From assembly GCA_015231955.1 (NCBI GenBank), contig JADGAN010000001.1, forward strand, positions 310,001 through 374,000: DNA of 64,000 bases, read 5' to 3'. Positions 19,868-46,505 of this stretch are shown one piece after another. Origin of the DNA: Oligoflexia bacterium (GTDB taxonomy: Bacteria; Bdellovibrionota; Bacteriovoracia; Bacteriovoracales; Bacteriovoracaceae). Below the pieces are notes generated by a model. The model searched no databases. It was given only the letters and a program-made list of their open reading frames with translations, and had not been told where the DNA came from. The translations under genes and the position numbers were made by a program. Each line of letters begins with the position of its first letter. Position 1 is the first letter of the stretch.

Positions 19868-21766
19868 ATGTGTGGGATTGCTGGATACATAGGATTTAGA
19901 CCGCAAGATCAGCATGAAGTTATTTGTTCTATGACATCTACAATTCAACATAGGGGGCCTGATCATTCGGAAATTTTCACCCACAACCTGGCATGTGTCG
20001 GATTCAATCGTTTATCAATACTAGATCTTTCCGAAAAGGGAAATCAGCCGTTTTCAGCAGGAGAGACCACAATCTATTGTAATGGGGAGATTTATAATTA
20101 TCTTCAATTAAAGAAGGAACATAAATTAGAAGATTTTTGCAAATCGAGTTCAGATGTAGAAATCTTGCCTTATCTGTATAATTTATATGGACTAGATTTT
20201 TTAAAAAAAATCAATGGCATGTTTGGAATGGTCATCCTCGATAATAAAAAAAATGAAGTACACCTGGTGACTGATTATTGGGGGAAAAAGCCAATCTACT
20301 ATATTCAAAGGAAGGAAGGGATCTTTTTTTGTTCAGAACTAAAAGGTCTTATTTTGGGATTGGGGGATCTATCAGTTGATAGAGAGAATTTAGCACTAGG
20401 ACTCAATCTTGGATATTTTTTGTCTCCACTTACACCTGTAAAAGGCGTTTTAAAATTAAAACCAGCAACTCTTCTTACGTTAAAAAACAATAAAAATATA
20501 TCGATTCAACAGTGGTATGTTTTAAAACCAGATTATAGTATTAACAATTTAAATGATCGTGATCTGGAAGAACTCTACTATACTCATTTAGATGAATCGG
20601 TAAAAATGAGATTACAGGCCGATGTGGATGTCGGTGTTTTTTTAAGCGGAGGAATGGATTCAACTACAGTTGCTGAATCGGCAGCAAGACAGTATGGAAA
20701 GAAAATTCATGCTTTTGTAGGATTGACAGAAGGACGTGAAAATAGCACTGACTATGTGAACTCCTTGAAATTTACAGAGGGAAAAAATTTTATTATTCAC
20801 AAGTGTTACAATGATGCAAACTCATATTCCAATTTTCTGGTGCCTACTTGCTTTTCCTATGATGATATTCCTTTTGAATCTGGTATTTTGAATTTCATGA
20901 CAATAACGAAGGCGGCCCAACCACATGTAAAAGTTTTACTTGATGGAGTAGGTGGCGATGAGCTTTTTCTTGGATATCATTGGCACGAGGGGGTCTTTAA
21001 ACGTGTCAACCCTTTTTTGCGTAATCTAATTCCCTTTGGAGGTCGTTTTTTCTTTGATATGTTTAAGAATAATAGTCGAATGATGCTAAGGAGCATGATC
21101 CTTGGAAATATGGAAAAATGGGTTTATTTTACAAGGAATTATATTTCCTATGATTCCATGCGATTGTCTAAACATTACAATCCTCAAAAACTCTTTAGCA
21201 TTCTTGATGAAGCCTTGCCTTCATATGCCAAAGAATTTAAAAACACAACCGATCTGAATTGCCTTGCTTATTTAGAGCTGCTGGGAATTAGGACATTACA
21301 ACACTCCTTTTCAGACAGAACTTGCATGGCCTACTCTATTGAAAATAGAAGTCCACTGTCAGATTATAAACTTTTTGAAAAATTTCTAGGCGTGAGCGAA
21401 AAGAGAAAATTGGCCCATGGGAAGAAATTTTTAATGAAAAAGATATCATCTCGTCTACCTGAATGCATCAGAGGAGGGGAGAAAGAAGGCTTTAGTTCAC
21501 CACTTTACTTATGGTTTTTAAAAGACAAAAAATTACTGAACACAATTATTTCTTATATTAAAAATAAAAGATATATTTTAGATGATCTTGTTGATCATGC
21601 ATTACTAAATCAAATATTATCAAAATGGGAAAAAAGAGAGCTCTTGTCATGGCCGGATGGGATTCAACTTCATATGATGATTAGTGTACTCATTTGGCAT
21701 GAGATCTTTTTTGAAAAACGTTATCGAAACAGACCAGATATTAATATCTTTGAATTTTGCGAATGA
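19868..21766 (+). CDS. asnB: Asparagine synthetase B-like amidotransferase (paralogue 3, divergent)
   Basis: A protein of 632 aa. The glutaminase part is intact (Cys2 in MCGIAGY, QHRGPDH, CNGEIYNY). The synthetase P-loop reads SGGMDS (260-265). The second synthetase loop reads LLDGVGGDELFLGY near residue 356, where paralogue 1 has LTGDGGDELFGGY, so the ATP/acceptor site has drifted. Of the three AsnB-type proteins this is the least canonical. It may use a different acid substrate. It sits immediately before the GAPDH-like gene, at the boundary of the unusual metabolic block. The ATG follows a GGGGG stretch. Confidence 0.85.
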   Translation: MCGIAGYIGFRPQDQHEVICSMTSTIQHRGPDHSEIFTHNLACVGFNRLSILDLSEKGNQPFSAGETTIYCNGEIYNYLQLKKEHKLEDFCKSSSDVEILPYLYNLYGLDFLKKINGMFGMVILDNKKNEVHLVTDYWGKKPIYYIQRKEGIFFCSELKGLILGLGDLSVDRENLALGLNLGYFLSPLTPVKGVLKLKPATLLTLKNNKNISIQQWYVLKPDYSINNLNDRDLEELYYTHLDESVKMRLQADVDVGVFLSGGMDSTTVAESAARQYGKKIHAFVGLTEGRENSTDYVNSLKFTEGKNFIIHKCYNDANSYSNFLVPTCFSYDDIPFESGILNFMTITKAAQPHVKVLLDGVGGDELFLGYHWHEGVFKRVNPFLRNLIPFGGRFFFDMFKNNSRMMLRSMILGNMEKWVYFTRNYISYDSMRLSKHYNPQKLFSILDEALPSYAKEFKNTTDLNCLAYLELLGIRTLQHSFSDRTCMAYSIENRSPLSDYKLFEKFLGVSEKRKLAHGKKFLMKKISSRLPECIRGGEKEGFSSPLYLWFLKDKKLLNTIISYIKNKRYILDDLVDHALLNQILSKWEKRELLSWPDGIQLHMMISVLIWHEIFFEKRYRNRPDINIFEFCE

Positions 21767-21781
21767 TTTCAGGGGGTGGGC

Positions 21782-22834
21782 GTGATAAAAAGTAAGGTGT
21801 TTATCAATGGCTTTGGAAGAATTGGTCGATGTGTTGCGAGGTTGATGCAAGGGCATCCAGCATTGGATGTGGTTGGGATCAATGATATTGTTCAAGATAT
21901 TCATAACTTTAAATATCTTTACAACTACGATTCAACCTATGGGATTGCAGAGAAAAAAGCAGAAGTTAAAGACAATTTTTTAATCATAGATGGAAAAAGT
22001 ATTGGGTTTTACTCTGCTTCTTCACTTTATGATATTCCTTTCGATAAACTTGGAGTTGACATCCTGATAGAAAGCTCTGGCAGAAGTGAAAGTTTGGCCA
22101 TATGTAATGATCTTGTAGAACAAAAGCGCATAAAAAAAGTTGTATCAACAAATTCTCCAAAATCTGGAGTGGATAAAATCATTATTATGGGAGTGAATGA
22201 AAGCTGTTATGATCACTCTTGCGATCATGTTATTGGAAGCAGCATATGTGATGCAAATGCGATTGCTCATTTGGTAAAATGTATTGGTGAAAATTTAGGG
22301 ATTAAGCGAGGAATGGTAACAACGTTGCATCCGTGGCTTTCCTATCAAAATCTTGTTGATGGACCAATACGCTATCGACTTAACCCTGAAAATACCACTG
22401 TTGATTATTCTCTCGGAAGATCTTGCGTTGCCTCGCTTATTCCTAAAAACACCACAGCTATTGATGCTGTACTTCAAGTTCTTCCTGAATATACTGGTAA
22501 ACTAGAAGCAATGTCTTTTAGGATTCCTACAAATATTGTTACTTGTGCAGATTTAACATTTGAACTTAATACTAAGTGTAGTCTTGCTACTGTAAAAGAG
22601 ATCCTCGGTGCTTTGGCGAAGGAGAATCGTTTCTTAGAATTAGGCCAAGAGCATCTTATAAGTATTGATTATCTTAAAACTACAAAATCGTGTATTATTG
22701 ATGACCAATGGACAAGGGTCATTGATGATAGCATGGTGAAAATTATTTTATGGTATGATAATGAATGGGGATACAGTGCAAGAGTCGTTGATTTGATGGA
22801 GCATATCTCTGTCCATTTAAGGAGTAGAGTGTGA
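21782..22834 (+). CDS. Glyceraldehyde-3-phosphate dehydrogenase-like protein
   Basis: A protein of 350 aa. GTG at 21782 is chosen because AGGGGG lies five bases upstream; GTG at 21776 is an alternative. The NAD site is VFINGFGRIGRC. The catalytic region reads SSICDAN where GAPDH has SCTTN. Cys (about 156) aligns with the nucleophile and the catalytic His is present in TTLHPW (about 183). The C-terminal domain keeps LPEYTGKLEAMSFRIPT and WYDNEWGYSAR. It should oxidise a phosphorylated aldehyde to an acyl phosphate or acid. The altered loop and the glycan-locus context suggest a substrate other than glyceraldehyde-3-phosphate, for example a four-carbon or sugar aldehyde phosphate (inference). 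Confidence 0.83.
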   Translation: MIKSKVFINGFGRIGRCVARLMQGHPALDVVGINDIVQDIHNFKYLYNYDSTYGIAEKKAEVKDNFLIIDGKSIGFYSASSLYDIPFDKLGVDILIESSGRSESLAICNDLVEQKRIKKVVSTNSPKSGVDKIIIMGVNESCYDHSCDHVIGSSICDANAIAHLVKCIGENLGIKRGMVTTLHPWLSYQNLVDGPIRYRLNPENTTVDYSLGRSCVASLIPKNTTAIDAVLQVLPEYTGKLEAMSFRIPTNIVTCADLTFELNTKCSLATVKEILGALAKENRFLELGQEHLISIDYLKTTKSCIIDDQWTRVIDDSMVKIILWYDNEWGYSARVVDLMEHISVHLRSRV

Positions 22835-23565
22835 TGCTCAAAAAAGTTGTCGCGCTTGATTTTGACGGAGTGATTTGCGATAGTGCTAAAGAGTGCATGT
22901 TTGTTTCTTATATGGCCTATGTAAAAAGCAGTGATAATCATATTAAAATCAATACGAAACTTCGGGAAAGCTTTTTAAATCATCGTTATCTTGTTCGTGA
23001 TCCTAAAAATTTTTATCTTCTCTGGAAAGTGATTATCGAGGGATCCATTTCACAATATGCTGGAAAACAGGATCTGTTTGAGGAAAGAGCAAAAAACGAA
23101 AAAGATGAGAATTTCAACTCGTTTAGAGAGAGGTATTTTCAAACAAGAAAAAAATTAAAAGTAACTAATATCAAAACATGGTTAAGAAAAAATCCACTGT
23201 ATCCAAATGTAGAAGCTGTAATCAATAAGCTACTTGTTGATTATCCTGTTTATATTATAACTACTAAGGACATTGAATCTGTACAAGATATTTTGTATTT
23301 CCATGGGATCACACCTACAAAAATTTATGATGGATCGACATTCACACAGAAGGGTATGATTATTAATCAGCTTCAGGCCCAACATTCTAAAGAAGGAAAA
23401 AAATGTGTGATTTATTACGTTGATGATCAGTTTAGTGATCTTCAGTCTTGTCAATCTGCAGGAGCAGTTGTTCGTTGGGCAACGTGGGGTTATGGTTTGA
23501 AGCCTGAATCTATAACGGCACTAGAATCATTTGCAGAGATACCTCATTTTGTCCATTCAGTTTAG
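22834..23565 (+). CDS. HAD superfamily hydrolase (probable phosphatase)
   Basis: A protein of about 243 aa. Motif I is LDFDGVICDS near residue 8, where the first Asp is the nucleophile and the second the acid/base. Motif II is YIITTKD near 140, and the late acidic motif is YYVDDQFSDLQS. A helical cap of about 100 residues follows motif I, as in phosphoglycolate-phosphatase-like enzymes. The ATG at 22834 overlaps the GAPDH-like stop by one base; GTG at 22831 is also possible. Its position after the GAPDH-like gene suggests it dephosphorylates an intermediate of the same pathway (inference). Confidence 0.8.
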   Translation: MLKKVVALDFDGVICDSAKECMFVSYMAYVKSSDNHIKINTKLRESFLNHRYLVRDPKNFYLLWKVIIEGSISQYAGKQDLFEERAKNEKDENFNSFRERYFQTRKKLKVTNIKTWLRKNPLYPNVEAVINKLLVDYPVYIITTKDIESVQDILYFHGITPTKIYDGSTFTQKGMIINQLQAQHSKEGKKCVIYYVDDQFSDLQSCQSAGAVVRWATWGYGLKPESITALESFAEIPHFVHSV

Positions 23566-23580
23566 TAAAGGATCATATTT

Positions 23581-25134
23581 ATGCTAAGAAAAAATGTTGT
23601 TTTGGTGAACTTAACTAGTGATATGATTAGAGATCGAGAGTTTTATCGAAAAAATAAGGGGCAAAATTTTATTAATATTGGACTGCTGGTAGTTGCAACC
23701 ATGTTAAAAAAGCAGGGATATAATATTTCAATCATTGATATGGCCTATGAAGAAAATTACCAGCAACTCATTAGAAGTTCATTAGATGAAACAACTGCAT
23801 TTGTCGGATTGTCTGTGATGACCTCGCAAGTACCTGCTGCGTTGGAAATTAGTCGTCTTGTGAAAAATATTAATCCATCTATACCAGTTGTTTGGGGAGG
23901 ACCTCATCCAACTTTTTTCATTGAAGAGACAGCTCGTAGCTCGCTGGTTGATGTGGCGGTAGTGAATGAGTCATTGAAAATTTTACCGGAGCTGGCAAAA
24001 AGGTTAAGTGAAAGAGATCTATTAACAGGATTGCATGGAATAGCTTATAAAAATGATAAGCAAATTATTTATGCACCAAACACAGACTTAGATGATATTT
24101 ACGACCTTGGGGCCATTGATCATAGTTGTTATGATTCAACTCTATATACTAAAAGCCCATTATTTACGCCACCTCTTAATAAGGATCAAGTTGTTTCATA
24201 TCCTTTAATTACTGGATTAGGCTGTTGTTTTAAATGTCGTTTTTGTCTCAATGTTATTTTAAAGAGAAAGTATCGCTCCAAAACTCCTGAGGTAATCATA
24301 GAGGAGCTAAAAGATCTTCAGAAAAAATATGGCGCTAATGCAATTTGGTTTATGGATGAAGATTTTTTTATTAACAAGAAAAGAACAATTGAATTGTTTA
24401 AGCTTGTTGAAAAAGAAAACTTGAAGTTTTATTGGCGTAGTTGGGTACGAGTTGATCATTTTAAAGAAAATTATCTCGATAAAAAAACCGTAAGTTGGCT
24501 TACCGATTTGGGATGGGTCTGGTCTTCTCTTGGAGCGGAAAGCGGAAGTGTGAAATCGTTAACGTATATTCAAAAAGGGATTCAGCCAGAGCAGATTATC
24601 AATTCGGCCAAGATTTTATCTGAAGTATCGAGCAAAAATCAGCACTGGGCGCGGTACACATTTATTGTCGGACTTCCTAATGAAACCATTGACGATGTAC
24701 TCAAAACTTTTTCACTGGCCTCAAAAATCAGGATGATTAATCCTCTCACCGATATAACGATTGCTATCTTTCGCCCTTATCCTGGTTCTCCAATGTCTAA
24801 AGAACTTATGGATAAAGGAAATTTAAGTTATCCAGAAAAACTGGAAGATTGGGAGGGAGTGTTCTCTAACCATGGGTTTATGGATGAGAGTAGCACTCCT
24901 TGGTTATCGCAAAAGGAAAGAAGTGAGATTGCTACTTTACATGCTTTCTTTGGAATGATCAAAGGAGGATCAATTCAGAAAATTGGATTACTAAGGTATT
25001 TTATCAATCAATGGATATTATGGAGAATCGAGAACAATTTCTTTTTATTTCCAATAGAAAAAATTTTATTTTACTCTTTCTGGATTCGGATTAGGATGTA
25101 TTTTCTAAGTAGATCTCAATTGAAAAGGGCTTAA
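23581..25134 (+). CDS. B12-binding-domain radical SAM protein
   Basis: A protein of 517 aa. Residues 1-140 look like a cobalamin-binding Rossmann domain (IGLLVVATMLKKQGYNISIIDM, VVWGGPHPTF), although the classic D-x-H-x-x-G is not evident. The radical SAM cluster motif C-x-x-x-C-x-x-C is in GLGCCFKCRFCL near residue 217. Further blocks are WFMDEDFFI, SLGAESGS and FIVGLPNETIDDV, typical of BchE/HpnP-like proteins. Such enzymes do C-methylations, ring rearrangements or oxidations. AAGGA stands eight bases before the ATG. The substrate is unknown. Its place between a HAD hydrolase and a hydroxyacid dehydrogenase suggests it modifies a small-molecule precursor. Confidence 0.83.
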   Translation: MLRKNVVLVNLTSDMIRDREFYRKNKGQNFINIGLLVVATMLKKQGYNISIIDMAYEENYQQLIRSSLDETTAFVGLSVMTSQVPAALEISRLVKNINPSIPVVWGGPHPTFFIEETARSSLVDVAVVNESLKILPELAKRLSERDLLTGLHGIAYKNDKQIIYAPNTDLDDIYDLGAIDHSCYDSTLYTKSPLFTPPLNKDQVVSYPLITGLGCCFKCRFCLNVILKRKYRSKTPEVIIEELKDLQKKYGANAIWFMDEDFFINKKRTIELFKLVEKENLKFYWRSWVRVDHFKENYLDKKTVSWLTDLGWVWSSLGAESGSVKSLTYIQKGIQPEQIINSAKILSEVSSKNQHWARYTFIVGLPNETIDDVLKTFSLASKIRMINPLTDITIAIFRPYPGSPMSKELMDKGNLSYPEKLEDWEGVFSNHGFMDESSTPWLSQKERSEIATLHAFFGMIKGGSIQKIGLLRYFINQWILWRIENNFFLFPIEKILFYSFWIRIRMYFLSRSQLKRA

Positions 25135-25137
25135 GAG

Positions 25138-26175
25138 ATGAAAAAAAAATATAAAGTTGTCATTTCCGAGGGCAAGAGACCTTCGATGTATTTAAAGCAT
25201 ATTGAGAATATCAAAAAAGAAATTTTCGGTGAAGATTTTGAAGTTATTTTGGCAAAGGATTTGGAAGAAGAGACTCTTATTGAGAAAATTGTTGATGCCG
25301 ATTCTCTTATTATTCGCCCGGGAATGATGTTTACTAGCAAAAGTATAAAAAAATTAAAGCAATGCCAATGCATTGTTAGTTTGGCGGTTGGGTATGATCA
25401 TATCGATATTGATTGTGCGAGTAAGCAGAAAATTAAAGTTTGCAATGTCCCTGATTATGGTTGTGAAGAGGTTGCGGACACGGCAATAGCACTCCTTTTG
25501 AATGCTGTAAGGAAAATTGGTTTTTACAATACGGTCTTAAAGGAGAATATTTGTAAATGGGATTGGCAGGTCGGAATACCGATGCATCGATTACGAAGTC
25601 AAAAATTGGGGATAATCGGCTTAGGCCGGATAGGCTCTGCTGTTGCCGTTAGGGCCAAGGCCTTTGGTATGGATGTGTGCTATTTTGATCCTTATAAAGA
25701 GTGTGGTTATGATAAATCACTTGGTATTTCAAGGATTGAAGCTATTGAAGATCTTTTAAGTTCATCAGACATTATAACAATCCATACCCCTTTAAATGAA
25801 GAGACGAAAGGTATGGTGAATAGATCGTTCATTGAAAAGATGAAGAGAGGGGCCATCCTGCTTAATACTGCGAGAGGAGCCATTTTTGATAGTCTGGATA
25901 CAATCTATTTTAGCTTGCAAAATGAGATTTTATCATTTGTTGCAACGGATGTTCTTCCAATTGAACCACCTATAGATGGAAAACATTTGTTATTAGAATC
26001 TTGGTCTACCGCCAGTTCCTTGTTTGATCAACGACTGGTTATAACACCTCATATGGCCTTTTATTCAGAAGAGGCCAGTTATGAGTTATGCTGTAAAGCT
26101 GCAGTTGCAGCGAGGAATTCTGTTCTGGGAAAAAGAGTTGATAATATTATTAATAGTGACAAATTTTTATATTGA
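25138..26175 (+). CDS. D-2-hydroxyacid dehydrogenase (NAD-dependent)
   Basis: A protein of 345 aa of the phosphoglycerate dehydrogenase/CtBP superfamily. The NAD motif LGIIGLGRIGSAV lies near residue 157. The catalytic Arg is in NTARGAIFDS, the Glu is probably in VLPIEPP and the His is in ITPHMAFYS. It interconverts a 2-hydroxyacid and a 2-ketoacid. A unique insertion (LLLESWSTASSLFDQ) precedes the His loop. The gene is three bases after the radical SAM gene. Its stop codon shares two bases with the target-site duplication of the small mobile element at 26174. Together with the GAPDH-like protein it resembles the Epd/PdxB order of steps (aldehyde phosphate, acid, 2-keto acid), but that is an analogy only. 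Confidence 0.87.
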   Translation: MKKKYKVVISEGKRPSMYLKHIENIKKEIFGEDFEVILAKDLEEETLIEKIVDADSLIIRPGMMFTSKSIKKLKQCQCIVSLAVGYDHIDIDCASKQKIKVCNVPDYGCEEVADTAIALLLNAVRKIGFYNTVLKENICKWDWQVGIPMHRLRSQKLGIIGLGRIGSAVAVRAKAFGMDVCYFDPYKECGYDKSLGISRIEAIEDLLSSSDIITIHTPLNEETKGMVNRSFIEKMKRGAILLNTARGAIFDSLDTIYFSLQNEILSFVATDVLPIEPPIDGKHLLLESWSTASSLFDQRLVITPHMAFYSEEASYELCCKAAVAARNSVLGKRVDNIINSDKFLY

Positions 26176-26295
26176 AAAAAAGTAACTGCTCACACCCTTC
26201 AGCCATCTACCCTCTACCGGATGCTGAAAGTTGCTTAGCTAACAGCATTTGGTTGAGAGGTGAAGGTTGAGGGGTGTGAGCAGTTACGAAAAAAA
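26174..26295. mobile_element. 106-bp IS66-like MITE with 8-bp target duplication
   Basis: The core at 26182-26287 is bounded by perfect 16-base terminal inverted repeats, GTAACTGCTCACACCC at the left and its complement at the right. Pairing continues imperfectly to 30 of 37 positions. An inner pair (ATGCTG at 26221-26226 with CAGCAT in 26243-26248) would extend the hairpin. The core is flanked on both sides by the identical 8-mer GAAAAAAA (26174-26181 and 26288-26295). Ends beginning GTAA plus 8-bp duplications are the known signature of the IS66 family. No transposase is encoded, so this would be a non-autonomous derivative. It separates the hydroxyacid dehydrogenase from the KARI-like gene and could fold in the mRNA. 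Confidence 0.75.
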
Positions 26296-26328
26296 TATAT
26301 TAACTTTAAAATTTTTCAAGGGAAAACA

Positions 26329-27336
26329 ATGGGAAAAGTTTATTATGATAAGGATGCAGATCTTAAGGAAATAAAAAAACAGACAATTGCAATTATTGGA
26401 TATGGTATTCAAGGCAGGAACCAATCACTCAATATGCGTGAATCAGGTTTGAATGTCATTGTTGGAAATATTGATGACCATTATGCTCCGAATGCAATTA
26501 AAGATGGCTTCAAATTGTATTCTCCTGAAGCCGCCGCCGAAAGAGCAGATATCATCTATATGCTAATTCCTGACGATGCACAGGGATATGTTTATGAACA
26601 GTATATTCGCCAGCATATGACGAAAGGAAAAGCTATTGTCTTTGCTCATGGCTTTTCTATTCGCTATGGACGTATTGTTCCTCCTAAAGATGTTGATGTT
26701 ATGTTGATGGCACCAAGAATGCCTGGAAAGCAAATTCGGGAGTATTTTTTAAATGGAAGTGGTGCGCCTGTGTTTATTGGTGTTCATCAAAATTACACAA
26801 AAAGAGCAAAACACAGAGTTCTTGCAATGGCAAAAGCAATTGGAGCAACTCGCATTGGTGCACTAGAGGTTTCTTTTGAAGAGGAAACAGAAGTTGATCA
26901 TTTCATAGAACATTTTCTTTTGCCCATTATTGTTCGTGCTATAAGAGTTTCTTATGATGCACTTGTTGAGGAAGGATATAGCAAAGAGGTTGCTTTGCTT
27001 GAAACTTATGCATCTGGAGAAATCGGGGAGCTTATTCTTGAGGCATCGAGAGTTGGTTTATATCAAGTTTTTCAGCAAAACACATCTCCCACTGCTCAAT
27101 TTGGCATGGCCCATTATGCAGAAAAAGTTTTTCCTGATTCAAATAAGAAGATGATTAAAGATATTTTAAAGAAGATTAAGAATGGTGAATTTGAAAAAGT
27201 TTTAAAGAAAGAAGGACTATCTGGCTATAAGCATTTAAAAAAGGTAGTTAAAGATAATAATCAATCTGATCTTATAAAAACGCATCATCGTTTACAAAAA
27301 ATGATTAAAATTAGTGGGAATGAGGCCGTAAAATAA
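26329..27336 (+). CDS. Ketol-acid reductoisomerase-like protein with altered active-site Lys
   Basis: A protein of 335 aa from the ATG at 26329, with AGGG just upstream. In-frame codons further 5' come from the MITE and are not native. It follows class I KARI (IlvC) closely at the start (VYYDKDADL, AIIGYGIQGRN at 21-31, FAHGFSI with His107, Asp190 and Glu194 in VDHFIEH). At position 130, where IlvC has Lys in APKGPG, this protein has Arg (APRMPG). The C-terminal metal-site glutamates are only partly matched (E225, E231). IlvC performs an alkyl shift plus NADPH reduction of acetolactate. The substitution and the glycan-locus neighbours point to a different branched ketol-acid substrate or a simple reductase role (inference). 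Confidence 0.85.
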   Translation: MGKVYYDKDADLKEIKKQTIAIIGYGIQGRNQSLNMRESGLNVIVGNIDDHYAPNAIKDGFKLYSPEAAAERADIIYMLIPDDAQGYVYEQYIRQHMTKGKAIVFAHGFSIRYGRIVPPKDVDVMLMAPRMPGKQIREYFLNGSGAPVFIGVHQNYTKRAKHRVLAMAKAIGATRIGALEVSFEEETEVDHFIEHFLLPIIVRAIRVSYDALVEEGYSKEVALLETYASGEIGELILEASRVGLYQVFQQNTSPTAQFGMAHYAEKVFPDSNKKMIKDILKKIKNGEFEKVLKKEGLSGYKHLKKVVKDNNQSDLIKTHHRLQKMIKISGNEAVK

Positions 27337-27355
27337 TTGTAAAAGGAGATTGGTC

Positions 27356-28114
27356 ATGGTTGTAGGTCTTCTCGTAGGTAAAGATAGAAGTATTGGTTTT
27401 CCAGATAAACATAAAAAGTTAATTTTAGGTAGGCCACTTGTGGAGTACGCTTTTCTTTCTGCCACTCATTCAAAAAAAATTGAGAGACTTTTTGTTTCGT
27501 CGGATTCTCCATTCATTATGGACATAGGAGAAAAGTATGGTGCAACGACTCTTTTAAGACCAAAAGAGCTAGCTCAACCAGATACTCTTTTAGAGGATTC
27601 TTTGATTTATGCTTATAAGCAAATGGAAGCAGTTCTTGAAACAAGCATTGATACTGTTGTTCTCTTTTTTGCTAATGCTCCAATGATCCCGCCAGGCTCT
27701 ATTGATAAGGGGATAGAGTTATTGCAAGAGAAATCAGAATATGACTCTGTTTTTTCTGTTTGCAAATATAACATGTTTTCACCTGCTAGGGCCTATAAAT
27801 TGACCAATGAAAGTGAGATTGCTCCCTTTATTGATAAAAATGCATTTGATCTTGAGAAAAGAGTAACTTCTATTCGTGATAGTCAGGGTGATTGCTTTTT
27901 CTGCACTCTCCAAGTTCAGATTCTTCGAGGACGATGTTTTACTCATATGGATGAAGGTCAATTGACTTATAAATGGATGGGACGTCGTTCTTATGCCATG
28001 GTTACAGACATTGGTTTTGATATTGATTATGACTGGCAAATCCCAACTGTTGAGGGATGGCTTGTGAAGACTGGTTTTACAGATAAAAGCACGCCTTATG
28101 ATTTATTAAGGTGA
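27356..28114 (+). CDS. CMP-sugar synthetase-like nucleotidyltransferase (divergent NeuA/KdsB family)
   Basis: A protein of 252 aa. ATG 27356 is preferred because AGGAG lies seven bases upstream. The N-terminal loop reads VGKDRSIGFPDKHKKLILGRPLVEY, corresponding to the A-R-G-G-S-K-x-x-P-x-K-N loop of acylneuraminate cytidylyltransferases but diverged. RLFVSSDSPFI and ATTLLRPKELAQPDTLLED match the following conserved blocks, and TDIGFDIDYDWQI matches the end of the family. It should activate an acid or ulosonic acid, usually with CTP. The unusual loop leaves nucleotide and substrate open. It is the last gene of the plus-strand block and overlaps the convergent gene by 19 bases. Confidence 0.75.
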   Translation: MVVGLLVGKDRSIGFPDKHKKLILGRPLVEYAFLSATHSKKIERLFVSSDSPFIMDIGEKYGATTLLRPKELAQPDTLLEDSLIYAYKQMEAVLETSIDTVVLFFANAPMIPPGSIDKGIELLQEKSEYDSVFSVCKYNMFSPARAYKLTNESEIAPFIDKNAFDLEKRVTSIRDSQGDCFFCTLQVQILRGRCFTHMDEGQLTYKWMGRRSYAMVTDIGFDIDYDWQIPTVEGWLVKTGFTDKSTPYDLLR

Positions 28115-29511
28115 TCCAAAATTGTTTTCGGCCAATCATAGAGAATAAAAGCTCCTGAAGAGTGTGGTTGGCCGGATATATGATAAAGATGATCCGTGAT
28201 TTTTTTCGTTTGCACGGAGGGGTAAACTTGTGTTGTAACAAGTTGATCTGCATGATGGACAAGCTGATAGACAGAATATCCAGATTCTAGTGCTTCAAAA
28301 ATGATTGTTGAAAATCCACCGACAATAATTTCAGTGGCATTGCGATTTAAGGGAATACTTTCGACAATTTTCTTGAGCAAAGGATGATTTCTAAAAACAG
28401 GATGCAAGACAATCGAAGAGCATTGAAGAGCATTGGATAGGATAAGCTCCTTTGCGAGAAGTAGTATCTCTTGCGCCGACTGCAGCCCGTAAGGCAAGAA
28501 GAGTTTCCCTTCAAGATCGTTTTTTGTTCTCTTGGTATGATATCGAGCAGATTGAATCAGTAGAGTTTCTTGAGGAGTGTGGCCAATTTGAGCTAATATT
28601 TCTTGATGATCTCGTCCATGAATAAATAAGTGTTTGGGAAATGCTTTCTTAAAGTTTGAATTGCCTGCGATATAACGGCCAGCAAAAAGTGGGTTGTTGG
28701 TTAGGCTCGAGTGAATATATCCAAAAATATTTGCTCCAGACTCTTGGGCCGCTAAACATATGGCCCTTTGCTCTGGTTGCCCTTCCCATGGAATCAGGAT
28801 TTTTTTCCCCTCTATAATATTTTTAAAAGAATTTTTGCAATGACGATAGGTGGAGAGAGAGAGAATTGTGCGATAATTGATAAAAGAAGCTAGAAAATAG
28901 AAAAATGTATCAATTCTTTTGAAATTAAAGATTGCTTTAGAGAGCGTAGTGAATGAGTAGCAAATAGAAAGAAGTAGAGACCGCAAAGAGATAAAGCCAT
29001 GTGGATTCAAGACAAGGCATTGATGTTCTAAAAGTAAATCGAGCTCTTTTTTAGAAGGAGAAAAAAGAAGCTGAAGAATCAATTGTGGTTTTTTTCCTTT
29101 TTGAATTAAATCACCAATAAGGTTTCCCCAGTAAGGATCAGATTGTTTTTTTATAACGGACAAACAATTTTCACAAGAAGTGACCCAGGTCAATATAAAA
29201 ATATCAGATTCAGGAAGAATCTTCCCATAGATAAAGGGGGTAAAGAGGATTTGTTTTTTTACCTTTTTTAAAAGAGAAAGCATTAGCCGATATGATGTTT
29301 CTTTACATTGAGAGCATAGGAATAAAAAAGACCTAAAAATCGCGTGGAATGAATATTGGGGAGGATGATTATAAACCCAATCACCTTCATGACCTCCAGT
29401 GTAACTTCTGTCCATGGGCCAAAAAAATGGTAGAAATAGGATAATGGGATTTTTGCACCCTATTTTATTGATATCAATATTGATCTTTTTAAATACTTCC
29501 AAAACGTTCAT
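28096..29511 (-). CDS. TIGR04326-like surface carbohydrate biosynthesis protein
   Basis: A protein of 471 aa from the ATG at 29511, where AAGGAG lies just upstream; an ATG at 29553 would add 14 residues but has no ribosome site. Features include FWPMDRSYTGGHEGDW-like N-terminal text, IPWEGQPEQRAI near residue 260, a segment YIHSSLTNNP, and a C-terminal EIIVGGFSTIIFEALESGYSVYQLVHH block. The last resembles the donor-binding end of GT-B enzymes with an S-T-x-x-x-E pattern. I recognise the overall pattern as the TIGR04326 group, seen in Leptospira-type surface-glycan loci. Its enzymatic role is not established. A glycosyltransferase or a transferase for a non-sugar group is likely. Confidence 0.6.
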   Translation of the reverse strand: MNVLEVFKKINIDINKIGCKNPIILFLPFFWPMDRSYTGGHEGDWVYNHPPQYSFHAIFRSFLFLCSQCKETSYRLMLSLLKKVKKQILFTPFIYGKILPESDIFILTWVTSCENCLSVIKKQSDPYWGNLIGDLIQKGKKPQLILQLLFSPSKKELDLLLEHQCLVLNPHGFISLRSLLLSICYSFTTLSKAIFNFKRIDTFFYFLASFINYRTILSLSTYRHCKNSFKNIIEGKKILIPWEGQPEQRAICLAAQESGANIFGYIHSSLTNNPLFAGRYIAGNSNFKKAFPKHLFIHGRDHQEILAQIGHTPQETLLIQSARYHTKRTKNDLEGKLFLPYGLQSAQEILLLAKELILSNALQCSSIVLHPVFRNHPLLKKIVESIPLNRNATEIIVGGFSTIIFEALESGYSVYQLVHHADQLVTTQVYPSVQTKKITDHLYHISGQPHSSGAFILYDWPKTILDHLNKS

Positions 29512-29569
29512 ATGCTCCTTGACAGTAGGGGGCTTGCGTATAAGTAAAAACATTGGTTTTGTTTTTATT

Positions 29570-32655: not shown

Positions 32656-32841
32656 TAAGTAATTGCTGGTAAAGTATTTTTCTTTATTTTATGATTGTTT
32701 TTTAGTTGCACTTAAGTGTCAACATTCAGTAGATCAATTTCAAACTGGGCCCTGCGTCGTGATTACACCTCTTGCTTTTTTGTCAAAATACCTAGAACAT
32801 TGTACTTTTACCACTCATCGAAAAATTTTGGAAGATCCTTT

Positions 32842-33816
32842 ATGCGCCACTCACAAAACAACATTAAAACTCTACAACGCTATTATCACGATATGCTTTT
32901 GATTAGAAGGTTTGAGGAAAAAGTTCTCTCCTTTTTTGATGTTAGTAATAAAAATAAAATTTTTGGAACTACACACGTCTACATTGGTCAAGAGGCAGTT
33001 GCTGTTGGTGTATGTTCAAAATTAAGGCAAAATGACTTCATTACCAGTACTCATCGAGGGCATGGCCATTTTTTAGCAAAAGGAGGAGACCCTGCTCGAA
33101 TTATGGCAGAGCTCTTCGGAAAAGTTACAGGTTATAGCAAAGGCAAAGGCGGTACTCAACATATGGGCGATCTCTCCATCGGTCATTTGGGTTCGAATGG
33201 AATTACAGGTGGAGGGCTTCCTATTGCTACTGGGGCCGGATTTTCTATCCAATATCAAAAGCAAGACCAGGTTGTCGTTTGTTTCTTTGGCGATGGTGCT
33301 GCCAACGAAGGTATGTTTCACGAAAGCTTAAACATGGCCGCTATATGGAGCCTGCCTATCATTTTTATATGCGAAAACAATCTTTATGCTATGTCAACGC
33401 CCATAAAAAATTCATTTTCCGTTCCTGATATTGCAACACGTGCTTGTGCTTATGGAATTGAAGGAGTCATCGTGGATGGAATGTGTGTTTTGGATGTCGC
33501 TGCTAAAACTGAAGCTGCGGTTGAAAAAGCAAGAGGTGGAGGCGGCCCCACTCTTTTAGAGTGCAAAACCTATCGGTTTTTGGGGCATTCTAAAAATGAT
33601 CTTTGTGCTTATAGAACTAGAGAGGAGGAGAGTGAGTGGAGAAAAAAAGATCCTTTGGTTCAGATGGAGACCTGTTTGCATCACGAAGGTATGAGTTTAC
33701 AAGAATTCACCGCTATATCGAATGAAGTTAATCAGACGATTGAAGATGCCGTGCGCTTTGCTGATGATAGCCCTTGGCCATCGTCTCAAGAACTATTTAC
33801 AGATCTCTACTGTTAA
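32842..33816 (+). CDS. Thiamine-diphosphate dehydrogenase E1 component, alpha subunit
   Basis: A protein of 324 aa from the ATG at 32842, with GGAAGA six bases upstream. A longer frame exists 5' but its residues do not look like E1. Conserved blocks are THVYIGQEAVAVG, STHRGHGHFLAKG and YSKGKGGTQHMGD. The TPP/Mg motif runs from CFFGDGAANEG to ENN (about residues 140-175), and YRFLGHSKND is the regulatory-loop region. Length and motifs match pyruvate/acetoin-type E1-alpha. No E2 or E3 is encoded nearby. The pair may catalyse TPP-dependent decarboxylation or two-carbon (acetyl) transfer on a sugar or keto acid for the glycan, rather than feed central metabolism (inference). Confidence 0.88.
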   Translation: MRHSQNNIKTLQRYYHDMLLIRRFEEKVLSFFDVSNKNKIFGTTHVYIGQEAVAVGVCSKLRQNDFITSTHRGHGHFLAKGGDPARIMAELFGKVTGYSKGKGGTQHMGDLSIGHLGSNGITGGGLPIATGAGFSIQYQKQDQVVVCFFGDGAANEGMFHESLNMAAIWSLPIIFICENNLYAMSTPIKNSFSVPDIATRACAYGIEGVIVDGMCVLDVAAKTEAAVEKARGGGGPTLLECKTYRFLGHSKNDLCAYRTREEESEWRKKDPLVQMETCLHHEGMSLQEFTAISNEVNQTIEDAVRFADDSPWPSSQELFTDLYC

Positions 33817-33834
33817 CTCTTAAAAGGAATTACC

Positions 33835-34872
33835 GTGAAAAATGTTTTCTACTTAAAGGCCATTCAAGAAGCTTTGATTGAAGAGATTGAACGAGATCCC
33901 TCTGTCTTTCTCATGGGAGAGGATATTGGAGAGTATGGAGGTTGCTTTGGCGTCACGAGAGGAATGCTAAAAACCTTTGGATCCAAAAGAGTTGTAGATC
34001 TTCCGATGTCTGAAACTAGCTTTATGGGCATGGCGGTCGGTGCGGCCATCACCGGCCTAAGACCTATTGTAGAAATCATGTTCATGGATTTTATTACTCT
34101 AAGTTCAGATGCCATTATCAATCATGCTATTAAACTACGTTATATCTTTGGTGGTGGAGTAAAAGTTCCCTTAGTTATTAGGGCCCCTTCTGGAGCAGGA
34201 AAACGATACGGTTCTTCTCACTCTCAATCGCTGGAGAGTCTATTTATGAACTTTCCAGGCCTGAAAATTGTGGCGCCTTCAACTCCTGCAGATGCCAAAG
34301 GCCTTTTGAAATCTGCAATCAGAGATGATAATCCAGTCCTCTTTATTGAGAATAAAGGTCTCTACTGGACCAAAGGAAATATCCCTGAGTCAGAATGTCT
34401 CATTCCAATTGGAGTTGCTAACATTCGGAGAGAAGGTTGTGATGTTACAATAGCAACATACTCCAGAATGGTGGATCTTGCCTTAGAGGCGGCCCAAGAT
34501 TTGGCCACTGAGGGTATCCATGTGGAAGTCCTTGATCTTCGCTCACTTGCTCCATTGGATACCGATACTTTATTTAACTCTGTATCTAAAACTGGAAGGC
34601 TTGTCACTTTGGAAGAAGGGTATCTTCCAACAGGTGTGGGTGCAGAACTTTCTTCTCTGGTGGTTGAACATCTCTTTTCGCGACTCAAATCTCCAATATA
34701 TCGAATTGCTTGCGAAGCTGTTCCTATTCCTTACAGTCCCGTTTTGGAAGATTTGGCCATTCCCAGTAAAGATAAAGTCATTGCTACAATAAAAAAATCG
34801 TGCAACTTTCAATCGAATACTATCTATGTGAGAAACAAATGGAACCATCAAGAACACAGAATGGATATCTAA
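33835..34872 (+). CDS. Thiamine-diphosphate dehydrogenase E1 component, beta subunit
   Basis: A protein of 345 aa starting with GTG at 33835, after AAAGGA. Recognisable E1-beta blocks are MGEDIGEYGGCFGVTRG (the conserved Glu that activates TPP), DLPMSETSFMGMAVGAA, EIMFMDFI and APSGAGKRYGSSHSQSLE. The C-terminal domain shows VLDLRSLAPLDTDTL and TLEEGYLPTGVGAE. It forms the alpha2beta2 enzyme with the gene upstream (gap 18 bases). The 3' end overlaps the acyltransferase gene by 34 bases, a strong sign that the three act together. Donor and acceptor are unknown. Confidence 0.9.
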   Translation: MKNVFYLKAIQEALIEEIERDPSVFLMGEDIGEYGGCFGVTRGMLKTFGSKRVVDLPMSETSFMGMAVGAAITGLRPIVEIMFMDFITLSSDAIINHAIKLRYIFGGGVKVPLVIRAPSGAGKRYGSSHSQSLESLFMNFPGLKIVAPSTPADAKGLLKSAIRDDNPVLFIENKGLYWTKGNIPESECLIPIGVANIRREGCDVTIATYSRMVDLALEAAQDLATEGIHVEVLDLRSLAPLDTDTLFNSVSKTGRLVTLEEGYLPTGVGAELSSLVVEHLFSRLKSPIYRIACEAVPIPYSPVLEDLAIPSKDKVIATIKKSCNFQSNTIYVRNKWNHQEHRMDI

Positions 34873-41279: not shown

Positions 41280-42161
41280 TTAATGACCTCGTAATTTTTT
41301 ACGAACAGATAGTTCGTTTTCTGTCAATCGCTTAACACCATCGCCTAATACGGTCTCGAGTTCTCTGATTCTTCTGCATAAAATATCCATGCCCGTAACT
41401 TCAATGCTTGCAAAATGATCCGATCCCCACATCGAATGATCAAGGGTAATATGTCTCTCAATAATTCTGGCCCCGAGTAGAACGGAGGTTACTGTTGGCT
41501 CAAGACCATACTCATGTCCGCTGTATCCCACAATACAGTTGTATCGATCTTTTAGAGACTGTATTATTTTTAGATTAAGTTCTTGTGGTGGGGTTGGGTA
41601 TGTGGAATTGGTATGCATTAAAATATAATCACCATTGGTATGCTTTTCTAATATATTGACTGCCTCATCGATTTCATCGTAGTTGCTCATGCCCGTAGAT
41701 AGTATAATAAGCTTATTGGTTTTTGCTGCATGGATAAGTAACTCTTTTTCCGTTAACTTGGAAGAAGGGATTTTTAGAAAAGGAACATCGTAATTTAATA
41801 TGAAATCAATACTTGGAATATCCCAGACAGAAGCAGACCACTCGATGGGTTTTTCTTTGCAATAGTGATCAATATAAGAATATTCAAGCTGGCCAAATTC
41901 TAACTTGTACCTGTAGTCCAGGTATGTCATTCTTCCCCATGGAGTGTCTCTCATAACGCCTTTTTGGTGCTCTGGAACGCAAATACTGGGCGTTCTTTTT
42001 TGGAATTTAACACAATTCCAGTTGCACGCAAAAGCCGCATCGATCAGCTTTTTTGTAATGGTAAGATCACTGTTGTGGTTAATTCCAATTTCTGCGATCA
42101 AATAGACGGGACTGTTGTCGGAAATAGTATGATTCAAAATCTTAACAATCTTATTTGCCAT
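41280..42161 (-). CDS. neuB: NeuB-like ulosonic acid synthase lacking the SAF domain
   Basis: A protein of 293 aa that condenses phosphoenolpyruvate with an aldose or aldose phosphate to form a 2-keto-3-deoxy acid. The TIM-barrel motifs are VYLIAEIGINHNSDL near residue 18, VKFQKRTP, SASVWDIPSIDF, ILSTGMSNYDEI, NSTYPTPP, GYSGHEYGLEP and ERHITLDHSMWGSDHFAS. Ordinary NeuB proteins (about 340 aa) end in a SAF antifreeze-like domain of about 60 residues. Here the protein stops at RKKLRGH, with no such domain. It lies with a CMP-synthetase/phosphatase fusion and KdnA/KdnB-like genes. Its product could be an 8- or 9-carbon ulosonic acid. Confidence 0.87.
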   Translation of the reverse strand: MANKIVKILNHTISDNSPVYLIAEIGINHNSDLTITKKLIDAAFACNWNCVKFQKRTPSICVPEHQKGVMRDTPWGRMTYLDYRYKLEFGQLEYSYIDHYCKEKPIEWSASVWDIPSIDFILNYDVPFLKIPSSKLTEKELLIHAAKTNKLIILSTGMSNYDEIDEAVNILEKHTNGDYILMHTNSTYPTPPQELNLKIIQSLKDRYNCIVGYSGHEYGLEPTVTSVLLGARIIERHITLDHSMWGSDHFASIEVTGMDILCRRIRELETVLGDGVKRLTENELSVRKKLRGH

Positions 42162-42183
42162 AGATCTACCACCCCATTAATAT

Positions 42184-43032
42184 TTATAGATTAATACTAG
42201 AAAAAATCGTATCACAGATACCAAGTGCTGCCAATTGTTCTTCGTAAGCTTGATTTAATCCTGGAGAATTTAAAAAATGAAAATGCTTGTGTCCTCCAGG
42301 GGATTTTTTTGAAAGCCAGTATAGATGATTGGCGAGAGGATATCTTTGGATTTGCTTGATATAGGAAATTTTGAAGCCACAATTATTGAAAAGCTTTGCA
42401 AGAGTTTGGCCATTGTATAAAAACAGATGACAACTCCAGTAGGTGAAATTTGAGAACTCTTGTGATTCATACAAAGTGAGTAATGCATCGGCTGAATTAG
42501 GTACTTCAATAATGATTTTCCCACCAGGGGTGAGGTGTTGTTTAAGCTGATTTAAAAAATTGATAGGATCAGCAATATGTTCTAGAACATGAAATAGTGT
42601 GATAAAATCAAAACGATCATTAGTGGAGAGATGATTTATGCTTTCAACTGTATGCAAATTTTTTTTTTGATGATAATCCCGAGCATTTATTTCCAGTTCG
42701 ACACCCATGGTAAGAGAAGTTTTTTTTGCAGCTTTTAATAAAAAACCACCATTCCCACAGCCGACGTCAAGCAATGATTTGTTTTCAATAAGCTGATGAA
42801 GAACCTTATATCTTCTTGAGTCGTCATCTTCTGTTTCTGTTAACCATTTATCAATATCAACTTGTTTGTCATGCATTCCAGATTGTTCATAAAAATCAAC
42901 TGGAAGGTGCTTGTCCGAGGGTAAAAACACGAGAGAGCAGTTGTTGCATTCATAGATTGGAAGTGATGGATTATCACGAACCTTTCCTTGTCGTGTTTTG
43001 TGGGAATTACTTCCACAAAGGTAGCAGATCAT
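42184..43032 (-). CDS. Class I SAM methyltransferase with zinc ribbon
   Basis: A protein of 282 aa. It starts directly with the zinc ribbon (ICYLCGS, then CNNC near residue 31). SAM-binding motifs are SLLDVGCGNGGFLL and TLFHVLEHIADPINFL, and PGGKIIIEVPNSADALL follows. It lies between the NeuB-like gene and the CMP-synthetase fusion with a gap of only two bases to the latter, so its substrate may be the ulosonic acid or its precursor (inference). It is the third member of this methyltransferase type in the locus. Confidence 0.82.
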   Translation of the reverse strand: MICYLCGSNSHKTRQGKVRDNPSLPIYECNNCSLVFLPSDKHLPVDFYEQSGMHDKQVDIDKWLTETEDDDSRRYKVLHQLIENKSLLDVGCGNGGFLLKAAKKTSLTMGVELEINARDYHQKKNLHTVESINHLSTNDRFDFITLFHVLEHIADPINFLNQLKQHLTPGGKIIIEVPNSADALLTLYESQEFSNFTYWSCHLFLYNGQTLAKLFNNCGFKISYIKQIQRYPLANHLYWLSKKSPGGHKHFHFLNSPGLNQAYEEQLAALGICDTIFSSINL

Positions 43033-43034
43033 GA

Positions 43035-44174
43035 TTATTCTCCATTATGCACATTAATTATGAGATCACAAAACTCTCGAACTGCTCCTTCTCCTCCCTT
43101 TCCGAGAGTAATATAAATGGCAACAGACTTGTTTGCAGAAGAAGCATTGGCAACAGTCACGGGGCATCCGACGATTTTTAAAGCAGACAGGTCATTTAGG
43201 TCATCGCCAATATATGCAAGTTGGTTTAATGTTATGTTTTCCATTTGTGCTAATTTTTTCACCACATCGGATTTTTCTTTTATTCCTTGATAGAGATGGT
43301 CTATTTTTAATTTGTTTGCTCGTCTGGCCACAATCTCAGTGTTTTCACTTGTCACAATAGCTGTTTTAATTCCAAGAGATCGTATCAGCTCTATGCCCTT
43401 TCCATCTCTTGTATTGAACTTCTTGATTTCATCACCATTTTCACTGTAATACATACTCCCATCTGTTAGGACACCATCGACATCAAGAATAAGCATTTTT
43501 ATATTCTTGATTTTTTCTCTTAAAGAAAGAGGAATGCACTCTGGATGGAAGCGCTTTAGTAGTAGTTGTTCTACAATGAAAAAATCAGTGTCATCGTCGA
43601 TCTCGTAACTAAGTTCTTTGCTCGAGATCATTCTTTCAATTTTCCCGCCAAACCAAAGTCCTTGCTCAACTAGTTCTTTCTTTAAAATATAGATATTTCC
43701 ATCGTCATAAAAAAATCCCTTAATTTGTTGGCGGGGGAGGTTGCAATGAGTTGCATACTCTTTTATTTTTGTATAATAACCACTTGCTAACGTATCACTC
43801 ATGGTGTTGTTGAATGAATGAATGGCCTCGTCAATCGTAGATGGATTACGAATGGGGGATGTTGGTTGTAAAACAACGACCGCAGTGATTTTTCCTTTTA
43901 AAGGATGATGTTCGACGATGTGCTTGAGCAATTCTATTGTCGTTGTGTCATCTTCTGCTAAGTCAGATGGACGCTGGAGTACCTTGGCCCCATATTGTTG
44001 AGCTATCTGAGCAATCTCATCATCCTCTGTAGAGACATAAAATTCATCCAGTAATTTTGAGTTCTTTGCGGCTTCAATTGTCCAATAGATGAGAGGAAAT
44101 CCTGCTATTGGTTTTATATTCTTCCTTGGAATTCCCTTGCTTCCACCTCTTGCTGGAATAATTCCGATAATCAT
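43035..44174 (-). CDS. CMP-ulosonate synthetase fused to KdsC-type HAD phosphatase
   Basis: A protein of 379 aa with two domains. Residues 1-205 are an acylneuraminate/KDO cytidylyltransferase (PARGGSKGIPRKN near 7, LQPTSPIRNPSTID near 102). Residues 225-375 are a HAD phosphatase of the KdsC type (LILDVDGVLTDG near 229, AIVTSENTE, YIGDDLNDL). The first domain activates a 2-keto-3-deoxy acid with CTP. The second would remove a phosphate, which fits a NeuB-like synthase producing a phosphorylated ulosonic acid. Animal CMAS has the same order, but bacterial fusions are less common. A GGAG precedes the ATG. Confidence 0.87.
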   Translation of the reverse strand: MIIGIIPARGGSKGIPRKNIKPIAGFPLIYWTIEAAKNSKLLDEFYVSTEDDEIAQIAQQYGAKVLQRPSDLAEDDTTTIELLKHIVEHHPLKGKITAVVVLQPTSPIRNPSTIDEAIHSFNNTMSDTLASGYYTKIKEYATHCNLPRQQIKGFFYDDGNIYILKKELVEQGLWFGGKIERMISSKELSYEIDDDTDFFIVEQLLLKRFHPECIPLSLREKIKNIKMLILDVDGVLTDGSMYYSENGDEIKKFNTRDGKGIELIRSLGIKTAIVTSENTEIVARRANKLKIDHLYQGIKEKSDVVKKLAQMENITLNQLAYIGDDLNDLSALKIVGCPVTVANASSANKSVAIYITLGKGGEGAVREFCDLIINVHNGE

Positions 44175-44190
44175 ATTTTCAATGTTCTCC

Positions 44191-45267
44191 TTAAAGCATT
44201 CTTAAGAAAAGCTGCTTGATCTTTTCTCTTGGTAGTAGATCTCTCCAATTAGGGCCTAGAGCATTATGCAGAGGCTTTTCCATGAGTAAGGTAATATCCA
44301 CCATTTTTTCTAGAAGTGAATCTGTGATTTGATATTGCGGTGGACTGAGTTTGTTGATTTCAATATGATTTTTTTGCAGCATCAATTGAAACTCTTTAAC
44401 ATAATGAGGATAATAATCTTCAAGATAGTTGAATACAATACAATTAGCTTCTCCATGGTGAATCTTGAAGGCGTAGCTAATTCCATAGGAAAGAGCATGG
44501 CAAATTCCTACTTCAGAATAAACTATGGATTGTCCCCCAAGATAGGAAGCAACCATTAAATCGGCATTGTTGAATGTATTTAGAAAGCTTTGCTGACACA
44601 ATGATAAAGCTTTTTCTGCAAAGGCCTTACTGAATTCATTTAAAAAAGTGCCACAAAGGGCCTCAACACTGTGAATGTAACAATCCATTCCAGTATAAAA
44701 AGCTTGCTTTAAGGGAACTGTTTCAAGCAGGTTGGGATCAAGAATGATTTGATTAAAAATTGAATAGTCGCTGTTGATTCCTTGTTTTTTTTGGGGACTA
44801 ATCAGAACTGCAGTTCTAGAGACTTCAGCGCCTGTTCCTGAGAGTGATGGAATGCCTATTTTATAGATAGGCCTGGTTTTGACGAGATCCCATCCTTGGT
44901 AGTTTTCAGCTTTCCCCTCATTAGTCAATAAAACCGAAACAGCTTTGGCCATATCCATGGTTGAGCCTCCACCAATGGCAACAATAGCAGCGGGAGATGT
45001 TGCACGTTGATTTTTTATCGATTGAACAATAGAATCCACATCATTTGTCAGAGGTTCACGAGAGGTATTGACAAAAAAAGTTAAATCAGTCTCAGGGGAA
45101 AAGTTAAAAAAAGGTAGTGGACTTGATTTAAAAAAATGATCAATGATAAAAACAATTACTCCCTTGTCTTCTCTGAGTGGAATAAGAGTTGCGTCTAGTT
45201 GAGAGAATGAGCCTTTGCCAAAAATAACATTGGGAACGGATTTAAAATTTTTATAGGATGTCATCAT
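44191..45267 (-). CDS. kdnB: Iron-containing alcohol dehydrogenase, KdnB-like
   Basis: A protein of 358 aa. AIGGGSTMDMAKAVS near residue 95 is the NAD and metal-site motif. GIPSLSGTGAEVSRTAV, NSDYSIFNQIILDP, GMDCYIHSVEAL and IHHGEANCIVFNYL follow, all in the order of the KdnB-type group. In Shewanella, KdnB oxidises C8 of KDO and the aminotransferase KdnA then makes Kdo8N. Here the aminotransferase gene is directly upstream (gap four bases), so I assign the same pair. The actual substrate could instead be a nine-carbon acid made by the NeuB-like protein. Confidence 0.8.
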   Translation of the reverse strand: MMTSYKNFKSVPNVIFGKGSFSQLDATLIPLREDKGVIVFIIDHFFKSSPLPFFNFSPETDLTFFVNTSREPLTNDVDSIVQSIKNQRATSPAAIVAIGGGSTMDMAKAVSVLLTNEGKAENYQGWDLVKTRPIYKIGIPSLSGTGAEVSRTAVLISPQKKQGINSDYSIFNQIILDPNLLETVPLKQAFYTGMDCYIHSVEALCGTFLNEFSKAFAEKALSLCQQSFLNTFNNADLMVASYLGGQSIVYSEVGICHALSYGISYAFKIHHGEANCIVFNYLEDYYPHYVKEFQLMLQKNHIEINKLSPPQYQITDSLLEKMVDITLLMEKPLHNALGPNWRDLLPREKIKQLFLRML

Positions 45268-45271
45268 TCAT

Positions 45272-46465: not shown

Positions 46466-46505
46466 ATAGATTATCTCCATCTGTTCATGTTAAAGGTGTC
46501 TGGCT

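Follow-up and report, generated by a model that had tools for sequence, protein, structure and literature searches.

To our knowledge, most routes to the activated acidic sugars of surface glycans involve either phosphoenolpyruvate (PEP)-dependent synthases or the oxidation of nucleotide sugars. The cytidylyltransferases PseF and NeuA act on ulosonic acids, and FAH-family enzymes act on 2-oxo acids via a metal-bound enolate. BurG, an NAD-dependent cyclopropanol synthase of the ketol-acid reductoisomerase (KARI) family, stabilises a 2-oxo-acid enolate at two Mg ions (PDB 7PCC series; PMC9359912). Hydroxypyruvate is bound by this enzyme in its enolised form and converted to glycerate by reduction. 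In BurG, Asn48 and Asp51 exclude NADP, Glu232 is the catalytic base, and Tyr133 contacts the sulfonium group (PMC9359912). HpcH enzymes are metal-dependent aldolases that join 2-oxo acids, hydroxypyruvate among them, with hydroxyaldehydes and yield polyhydroxy 2-oxo acids (PMC7610986). Here we analysed a stretch of 64,000 nucleotides (hereinafter, the window; C26:310001-374000) within the 5.6 Mb genome of an Oligoflexia bacterium. At the 3' end of a glycan (surface-sugar) operon, the window carries genes for a glyceraldehyde-3-phosphate dehydrogenase (GAPDH)-like protein, a HAD-family hydrolase, a B12-binding radical S-adenosylmethionine (SAM) protein, a 2-hydroxyacid dehydrogenase (2HADH), a KARI-like protein and a cytidylyltransferase. 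With moderate confidence, we propose that this block encodes a dedicated pathway to an acidic sugar activated with cytidine monophosphate (CMP). Its precursor would be of the 2-oxo acid or 2-ulosonic acid type, and the product would be used by the surrounding glycan operon. Two of the enzymes, the GAPDH-like and the KARI-like, show visible signs of having been re-tooled, the one from glycolysis and the other from amino-acid synthesis.

The sequence-only reading of this DNA had described, at 21782-28114, six enzyme lookalikes in one operon with mostly tight spacing. We confirmed this layout. The six open reading frames (ORFs) lie approximately there, all on the + strand, and Pfam placed them in the families named: Gp_dh_N/C (GAPDH-like, 21776..22834), HAD hydrolase (PF00702, 22831..23565), B12-binding plus Radical_SAM (PF02310 + PF04055, 23581..25134), 2-Hacid_dh/_C (2HADH of the phosphoglycerate dehydrogenase (PGDH)/CtBP type, 25138..26175), KARI_N/C (26329..27336) and CTP_transf_3 (27350..28114). 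From the preceding AsnB-like gene through the cytidylyltransferase gene, the intergenic spacing is 9, -4, 15, 3 and 13 nt, and the gap between the 2HADH and KARI-like genes is the single larger one.

To determine how the block is represented elsewhere, loci were retrieved with the GAPDH-like or 2HADH sequence alone. Co-occurrence is given as counts from few loci, without a formal statistical test. The seven GAPDH-like loci comprised the window's own, those of two genomes from a different family, and the viral ones, with the near-identical L096-L098 counted once. All seven distinct loci have a cytidylyltransferase gene close to the GAPDH-like gene; a 2HADH gene accompanies it in all six that extend far enough, and a HAD gene in five of the seven. 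Since the GAPDH-like, cytidylyltransferase and 2HADH genes recur in loci retrieved by the first or the last of them alone, their linkage is not due to chance. In the genomes G282 and G283 (other family, same phylum), the GAPDH-like and 2HADH searches matched the same contigs. The operon there runs GAPDH-like, HAD, cytidylyltransferase, FAH-family protein, 2HADH and SDR, with identities to the window of 40-41% (GAPDH-like), 39-40% (cytidylyltransferase) and 38-40% (2HADH); beside it lie a NeuB gene in divergent orientation and another gene of the CTP_transf_3 family. The assumption that the GAPDH matches of these genomes (41-42%) were canonical GAPDH was rejected: the gene content of the loci and the 2HADH matches on the same contigs identify them as module members, and G282 has a separate canonical GAPDH besides. 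In G093, a genome of the same family as the window, a compact operon consists of GT1, cytidylyltransferase, 2HADH, KARI-like, SDR and a second 2HADH gene. The 2HADH beside the KARI-like gene is 45% identical to that of the window, versus 32% for the next-best match in G093.

Viral contigs were scanned with the GAPDH-like and cytidylyltransferase alignments and, separately, with the 2HADH alignment; Pfam families were checked for L095 and L096. L095 carries GAPDH-like, a small HAD-like ORF, cytidylyltransferase, HpcH/HpaI aldolase and 2HADH; the small ORF has no Pfam match and was termed HAD-like from its DFDGV motif. L096-L098 carry HAD, GAPDH-like, cytidylyltransferase, FAH, 2HADH, a short DegT and B12-radical SAM genes. 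A minimal four-gene module (GAPDH-like, cytidylyltransferase, HpcH-like, 2HADH) forms a compact operon at 8001-11330 of L114, a 175-kb viral contig. In L099, GAPDH-like and cytidylyltransferase genes at the contig end adjoin tail-sheath stabiliser, head-closure and adaptor genes; L099 is a phage carrying part of the module. The five best matches in the 2HADH scan were again the L095, L096-L098 and L114 contigs. In L100-L104, the cytidylyltransferase gene has a B12-radical SAM gene, a 2HADH gene or both close by, and further loci combine it with small HAD-like ORFs, FAH or SDR. Thus, the idea that the block is a precursor pathway gains support from the recurring operons in bacteria and viral contigs. 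A lack of co-occurrence in other genomes, which would have refuted that idea, was not observed: GAPDH-like, cytidylyltransferase, 2HADH and HAD genes recur. All six families together were found only in the window among the loci examined. The slot beside 2HADH varies. It holds the KARI-like gene in the window and G093, and an FAH-family protein or HpcH/HpaI aldolase replaces it in the other GAPDH-containing loci. The literature searched, which consisted of open-access papers, contains no description of this gene set.

The GAPDH-like protein is under every GAPDH and Epd equivalog cut-off (177.8 bits against the Epd equivalog, cut-off 539). In the tree, the seven GAPDH-like sequences form one clade with 100/100 support, separate from canonical GAPDH and two annotated Epd proteins. 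The clade retains the catalytic Cys149 and His176, plus R231, and its motif reads SICDA[N/T] as compared to SCTTN in GAPDH and Epd. Across the whole clade, Ser148 is replaced by Ile, Thr150 by Asp and Thr179 by Leu; Gly209 is replaced by Thr (Ser in one sequence), and the S-loop carries about 10 extra residues. The inorganic phosphate (Pi) site of GAPDH (S148, T150, T208/G209) is not kept. The loss of this site suggests hydrolysis to the free acid, and we predict that the enzyme is a non-phosphorylating aldehyde dehydrogenase. The sequence-only reading had seen a partial analogy with the Epd and PdxB steps of vitamin B6 synthesis. At the family level this analogy fails: the clade stands apart from Epd, and the 2HADH is far below the PdxB models (89.1 bits against the PdxB equivalog, cut-off 434).

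The KARI-like protein passes the TIGR00465 ilvC model and fails the other ketol-acid reductoisomerase equivalog cut-offs. In an alignment that included canonical KARIs and BurG, the proteins of the window and of G093 both have APRMPG in place of the APK-GPG loop of KARI, with Arg for the catalytic Lys, and Ser at the position of the canonical Glu230. Both have a shortened NAD-type loop with the N48/D51 of BurG and a Glu equivalent to its catalytic base Glu232, and Pro stands at the position of Tyr133. The KARI fold remains, together with some of the Mg ligands. In the tree, a five-row clade with 100/98 support comprises the window and G093 proteins, a frameshifted Rhizobium plasmid protein, an Eleftheria protein and BurG; G093 is nearer BurG than the window protein is, in a small, midpoint-rooted sampling. 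Because BurG nests among them in this small tree, the glycan-locus proteins may represent the ancestral state that gave rise to the malleicyprol BurG. The BurG-type KARI was found in 2 of the 129 family genomes, that of the window (G000) and G093. The other strong KARI matches in the family (G086, G008 and G137) are canonical KARIs. The ilvD gene was not found in G000, whose genome is about 95% complete, or in G093; in G008 and G086, it is on the same contig as canonical ilvC. A role of the KARI-like gene in branched-chain amino acid synthesis was rejected on the basis of the active site, the tree and the absence of ilvD. The protein is unlikely to perform the ketol-acid rearrangement first ascribed to it, and its active site is of the BurG type. 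We predict an NAD-dependent enzyme that enolises 2-hydroxy/2-oxo acids.

A partial faecal phage match (H90, 44%) was discarded as a KARI-like module member, being a canonical IlvC fragment. Two other groups, the phylum of G369 and the class of G370, were searched for KARI without a clear module member being recovered; the empty answer from the latter search, made with a strict cut-off and no positive control, shows little. A very divergent short KARI-like protein occurs family-wide, and in L002 (991-1944) its gene adjoins a lysine-2,3-aminomutase-like gene. An Oscillibacter KARI-like protein of the APRM type (L006, 9998-10996) groups beside the BurG clade and lies outside any glycan locus. AlphaFold models of the KARI-like protein (pLDDT 60) and the cytidylyltransferase (pLDDT 47) were of low confidence and were not used for fold searches.

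The residues R246/E276/H305 of the 2HADH are invariant in module members, and its highest score is for phosphoglycerate dehydrogenase. The cytidylyltransferase has the DxD metal motif (DID). Its nearest named families are PseF and NeuA; with 71.3 bits, it does not reach the PseF equivalog cut-off of 205.7. Such a NeuA/PseF-like enzyme would fit the activation of a 2-oxo acid. It forms a clade with the proteins of vL095, G282, G283, vL100 and vL102 at 100/99. The HAD-family hydrolase has DFDGV and DD motifs and is a predicted phosphatase; a Rouxiella HAD match was rejected, as there is no module at its locus. The B12-radical SAM protein (CxxxCxxC at residue 215) is the weakest member of the block: its relatives are near some related loci only, with 22-26% identity.

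From the observed families, linkage, clades and residue changes, we propose the following putative reactions, with their order and the types of substrate and product. The GAPDH-like enzyme would oxidise a (phospho)aldose, and the product would be the free aldonic acid, with no acyl phosphate formed. The HAD enzyme would then remove the phosphate, and the 2HADH would oxidise the C2 hydroxyl to give the 2-oxo acid. The Mg2+ cluster of the KARI-like enzyme would bind this acid in the manner of BurG; using NAD, the enzyme would take it through a 2-oxo/enolate state and thereby epimerise or reshape C2-C3. Finally, the cytidylyltransferase would activate the acid to a CMP donor. The product may be modified further, by methylation or rearrangement through the B12-radical SAM protein and by amidation through the AsnB-like protein. 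In the related loci, the FAH-family or HpcH/HpaI enzyme would take the fourth step. Since the enzyme of this step differs, the loci probably do not all make the same final sugar acid. We read the KARI-like, FAH and HpcH/HpaI proteins as unrelated metal-dependent enzymes, and we infer that their common feature is the 2-oxo-acid enolate. A broader generalisation is possible and, in our opinion, more doubtful than the pathway itself: bacteria and phages may share a PEP-condensation-free route to CMP-activated sugar acids, in which a non-phosphorylating GAPDH and a 2HADH are followed by one of three interchangeable unrelated metal-enolate enzymes.

Several points weigh against the proposed pathway. 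Neither an aldolase nor a PEP-condensing enzyme is encoded within the window block. Only two genomes were found to combine the KARI-like gene with module partners, and elsewhere its slot is filled by unrelated proteins; the KARI-like step may not be common to all loci. The loci are served by two different cytidylyltransferase clades, and phosphorylated compounds, too, can be substrates of CTP_transf_3 enzymes. The window HAD shows low identity (22-26%) to its syntenic counterparts in G282 and G283, and the HAD of L095 is different and smaller. Viral origin was checked by hallmark genes for L099 only.

We also considered that the block could make a three-carbon unit derived from glycerate or hydroxypyruvate. 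The GAPDH-like enzyme would give (phospho)glycerate, the 2HADH would give hydroxypyruvate as PGDH does, and the slot enzyme would use the enolate by condensing, tautomerising or re-reducing it. The cytidylyltransferase would then form a small acid linked to cytidine diphosphate or CMP. The PGDH score of the 2HADH agrees with this, as do the binding and reduction of hydroxypyruvate by BurG (PMC9359912) and its acceptance by HpcH enzymes (PMC7610986). We consider this variant rather unlikely: glycolysis already makes 3-phosphoglycerate, so that glyceraldehyde-3-phosphate would not call for a GAPDH-like enzyme of its own, and every member of the clade has Leu in place of T179, the residue that contacts the substrate phosphate. 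More improbable still is the first reading of the KARI-like enzyme, a true ketol-acid rearrangement and reduction that gives a branched-chain acid for the glycan. The fold, the remaining Mg ligands and the TIGR00465 match speak for it; the loss of the catalytic Lys and Glu230, the NAD-type loop, the BurG clade and the lack of an acetohydroxyacid-synthase-like partner in the block speak against it. It is very unlikely that ordinary paralogs were assembled by chance in a glycan locus and share no pathway, and we disfavour this explanation. Outside the window, no locus was indeed found to combine KARI-like and GAPDH-like genes, and the relatives of the radical SAM protein in other loci are all distant, but the linkage of the GAPDH-like, cytidylyltransferase, 2HADH and HAD genes recurs in separate families and viral contigs, and the cytidylyltransferase and 2HADH clades are related across loci. 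Malleicyprol-like cyclopropanol or sulfonium chemistry can practically be dismissed: BurG is the closest characterised relative of the KARI-like protein, but its sulfonium-contacting Tyr133 is replaced in the window and G093, and the block has no polyketide synthase or nonribosomal peptide synthetase gene of the kind adjoining BurG-type genes.

The larger gap between the 2HADH and KARI-like genes contains a 106-bp palindrome (26182..26287). This is a miniature inverted-repeat transposable element (MITE) inserted at the 2HADH stop codon, and the genome carries at least 40 near-identical copies of it. Most sampled copies have an 8-bp target duplication; at the window copy it is GAAAAAAA and begins inside the 2HADH stop codon. 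The hairpin has a z of -14.5, and the GTAA ends presumably resemble those of IS66-type elements. Without the element and the duplicated target, the gap would be 39 nt. Since the listed GTG start of the KARI-like ORF (26260) lies within the MITE, translation most likely begins at ATG 26329. A gene on the - strand (28096-29553) is convergent and closes the operon. Upstream, the AsnB-like glutamine amidotransferase gene (19868..21766, + strand; Asn_synthase + GATase_7, N-terminal Cys2, SGGMDS motif) stops 9 nt short of the GAPDH-like gene and is probably a member of the same operon. Its product might amidate a carboxylate. The window holds three AsnB-like genes in one glycan region (5896, 16102 and 19868), which suggests amidated sugar acids. 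A second sugar-acid module at 41280-46480 (- strand) consists of NeuB, a NeuA-HAD fusion, an iron-dependent alcohol dehydrogenase and a DegT aminotransferase; we take the last two to resemble the KdnB/KdnA pair of 8-amino-Kdo synthesis. Genes of the dehydrogenase E1 alpha and beta types also lie within the glycan region (32716-34872, + strand). Elsewhere, in L090 (3959-8064), the genes near a 2HADH gene encode two ATP-grasp-type enzymes, a protein of the FAH family and an MFS transporter, and together they may form a small-molecule cluster.

If the proposed pathway is true, a module of re-tooled GAPDH, 2HADH and exchangeable enolate enzymes would be a further route to activated sugar acids, with new acids to find. 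It would also give BurG-type KARIs a second context and a testable idea on the origin of BurG. Module genes on viral contigs, one of them with phage structural genes, raise the possibility that phages supply the precursor for host-surface or virion glycans. Among the known systems, BurG shares with the KARI-like protein the clade, N48/D51, Glu232 and the APRM-x-G and SPTxQ motifs. The two differ at Tyr133 and in context, a polyketide cluster for BurG and a glycan operon here, and a sulfonium acid substrate is unlikely. Canonical IlvC has in common the fold and part of the Mg ligands, whereas the KARI-like protein has lost the catalytic Lys and Glu230, has a changed NADPH loop and occurs in a genome without ilvD. 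GAPDH and Epd share the fold, Cys149, His176 and R231 with the GAPDH-like protein, which differs from them in its SICDA[N/T] motif, longer S-loop, replaced Pi-site residues and own clade. With the Epd-PdxB branch of vitamin B6 synthesis, the common idea is aldehyde oxidation followed by 2-hydroxyacid oxidation, although neither the GAPDH-like protein nor the 2HADH belongs to those families. Finally, the CMP-ulosonic acid pathways (NeuA/PseF/KdsB with NeuB or KdsA) share activation by a NeuA/PseF-like cytidylyltransferase; in contrast to their PEP condensation, the acid would here apparently be formed via oxidation steps and an exchangeable enolate enzyme.

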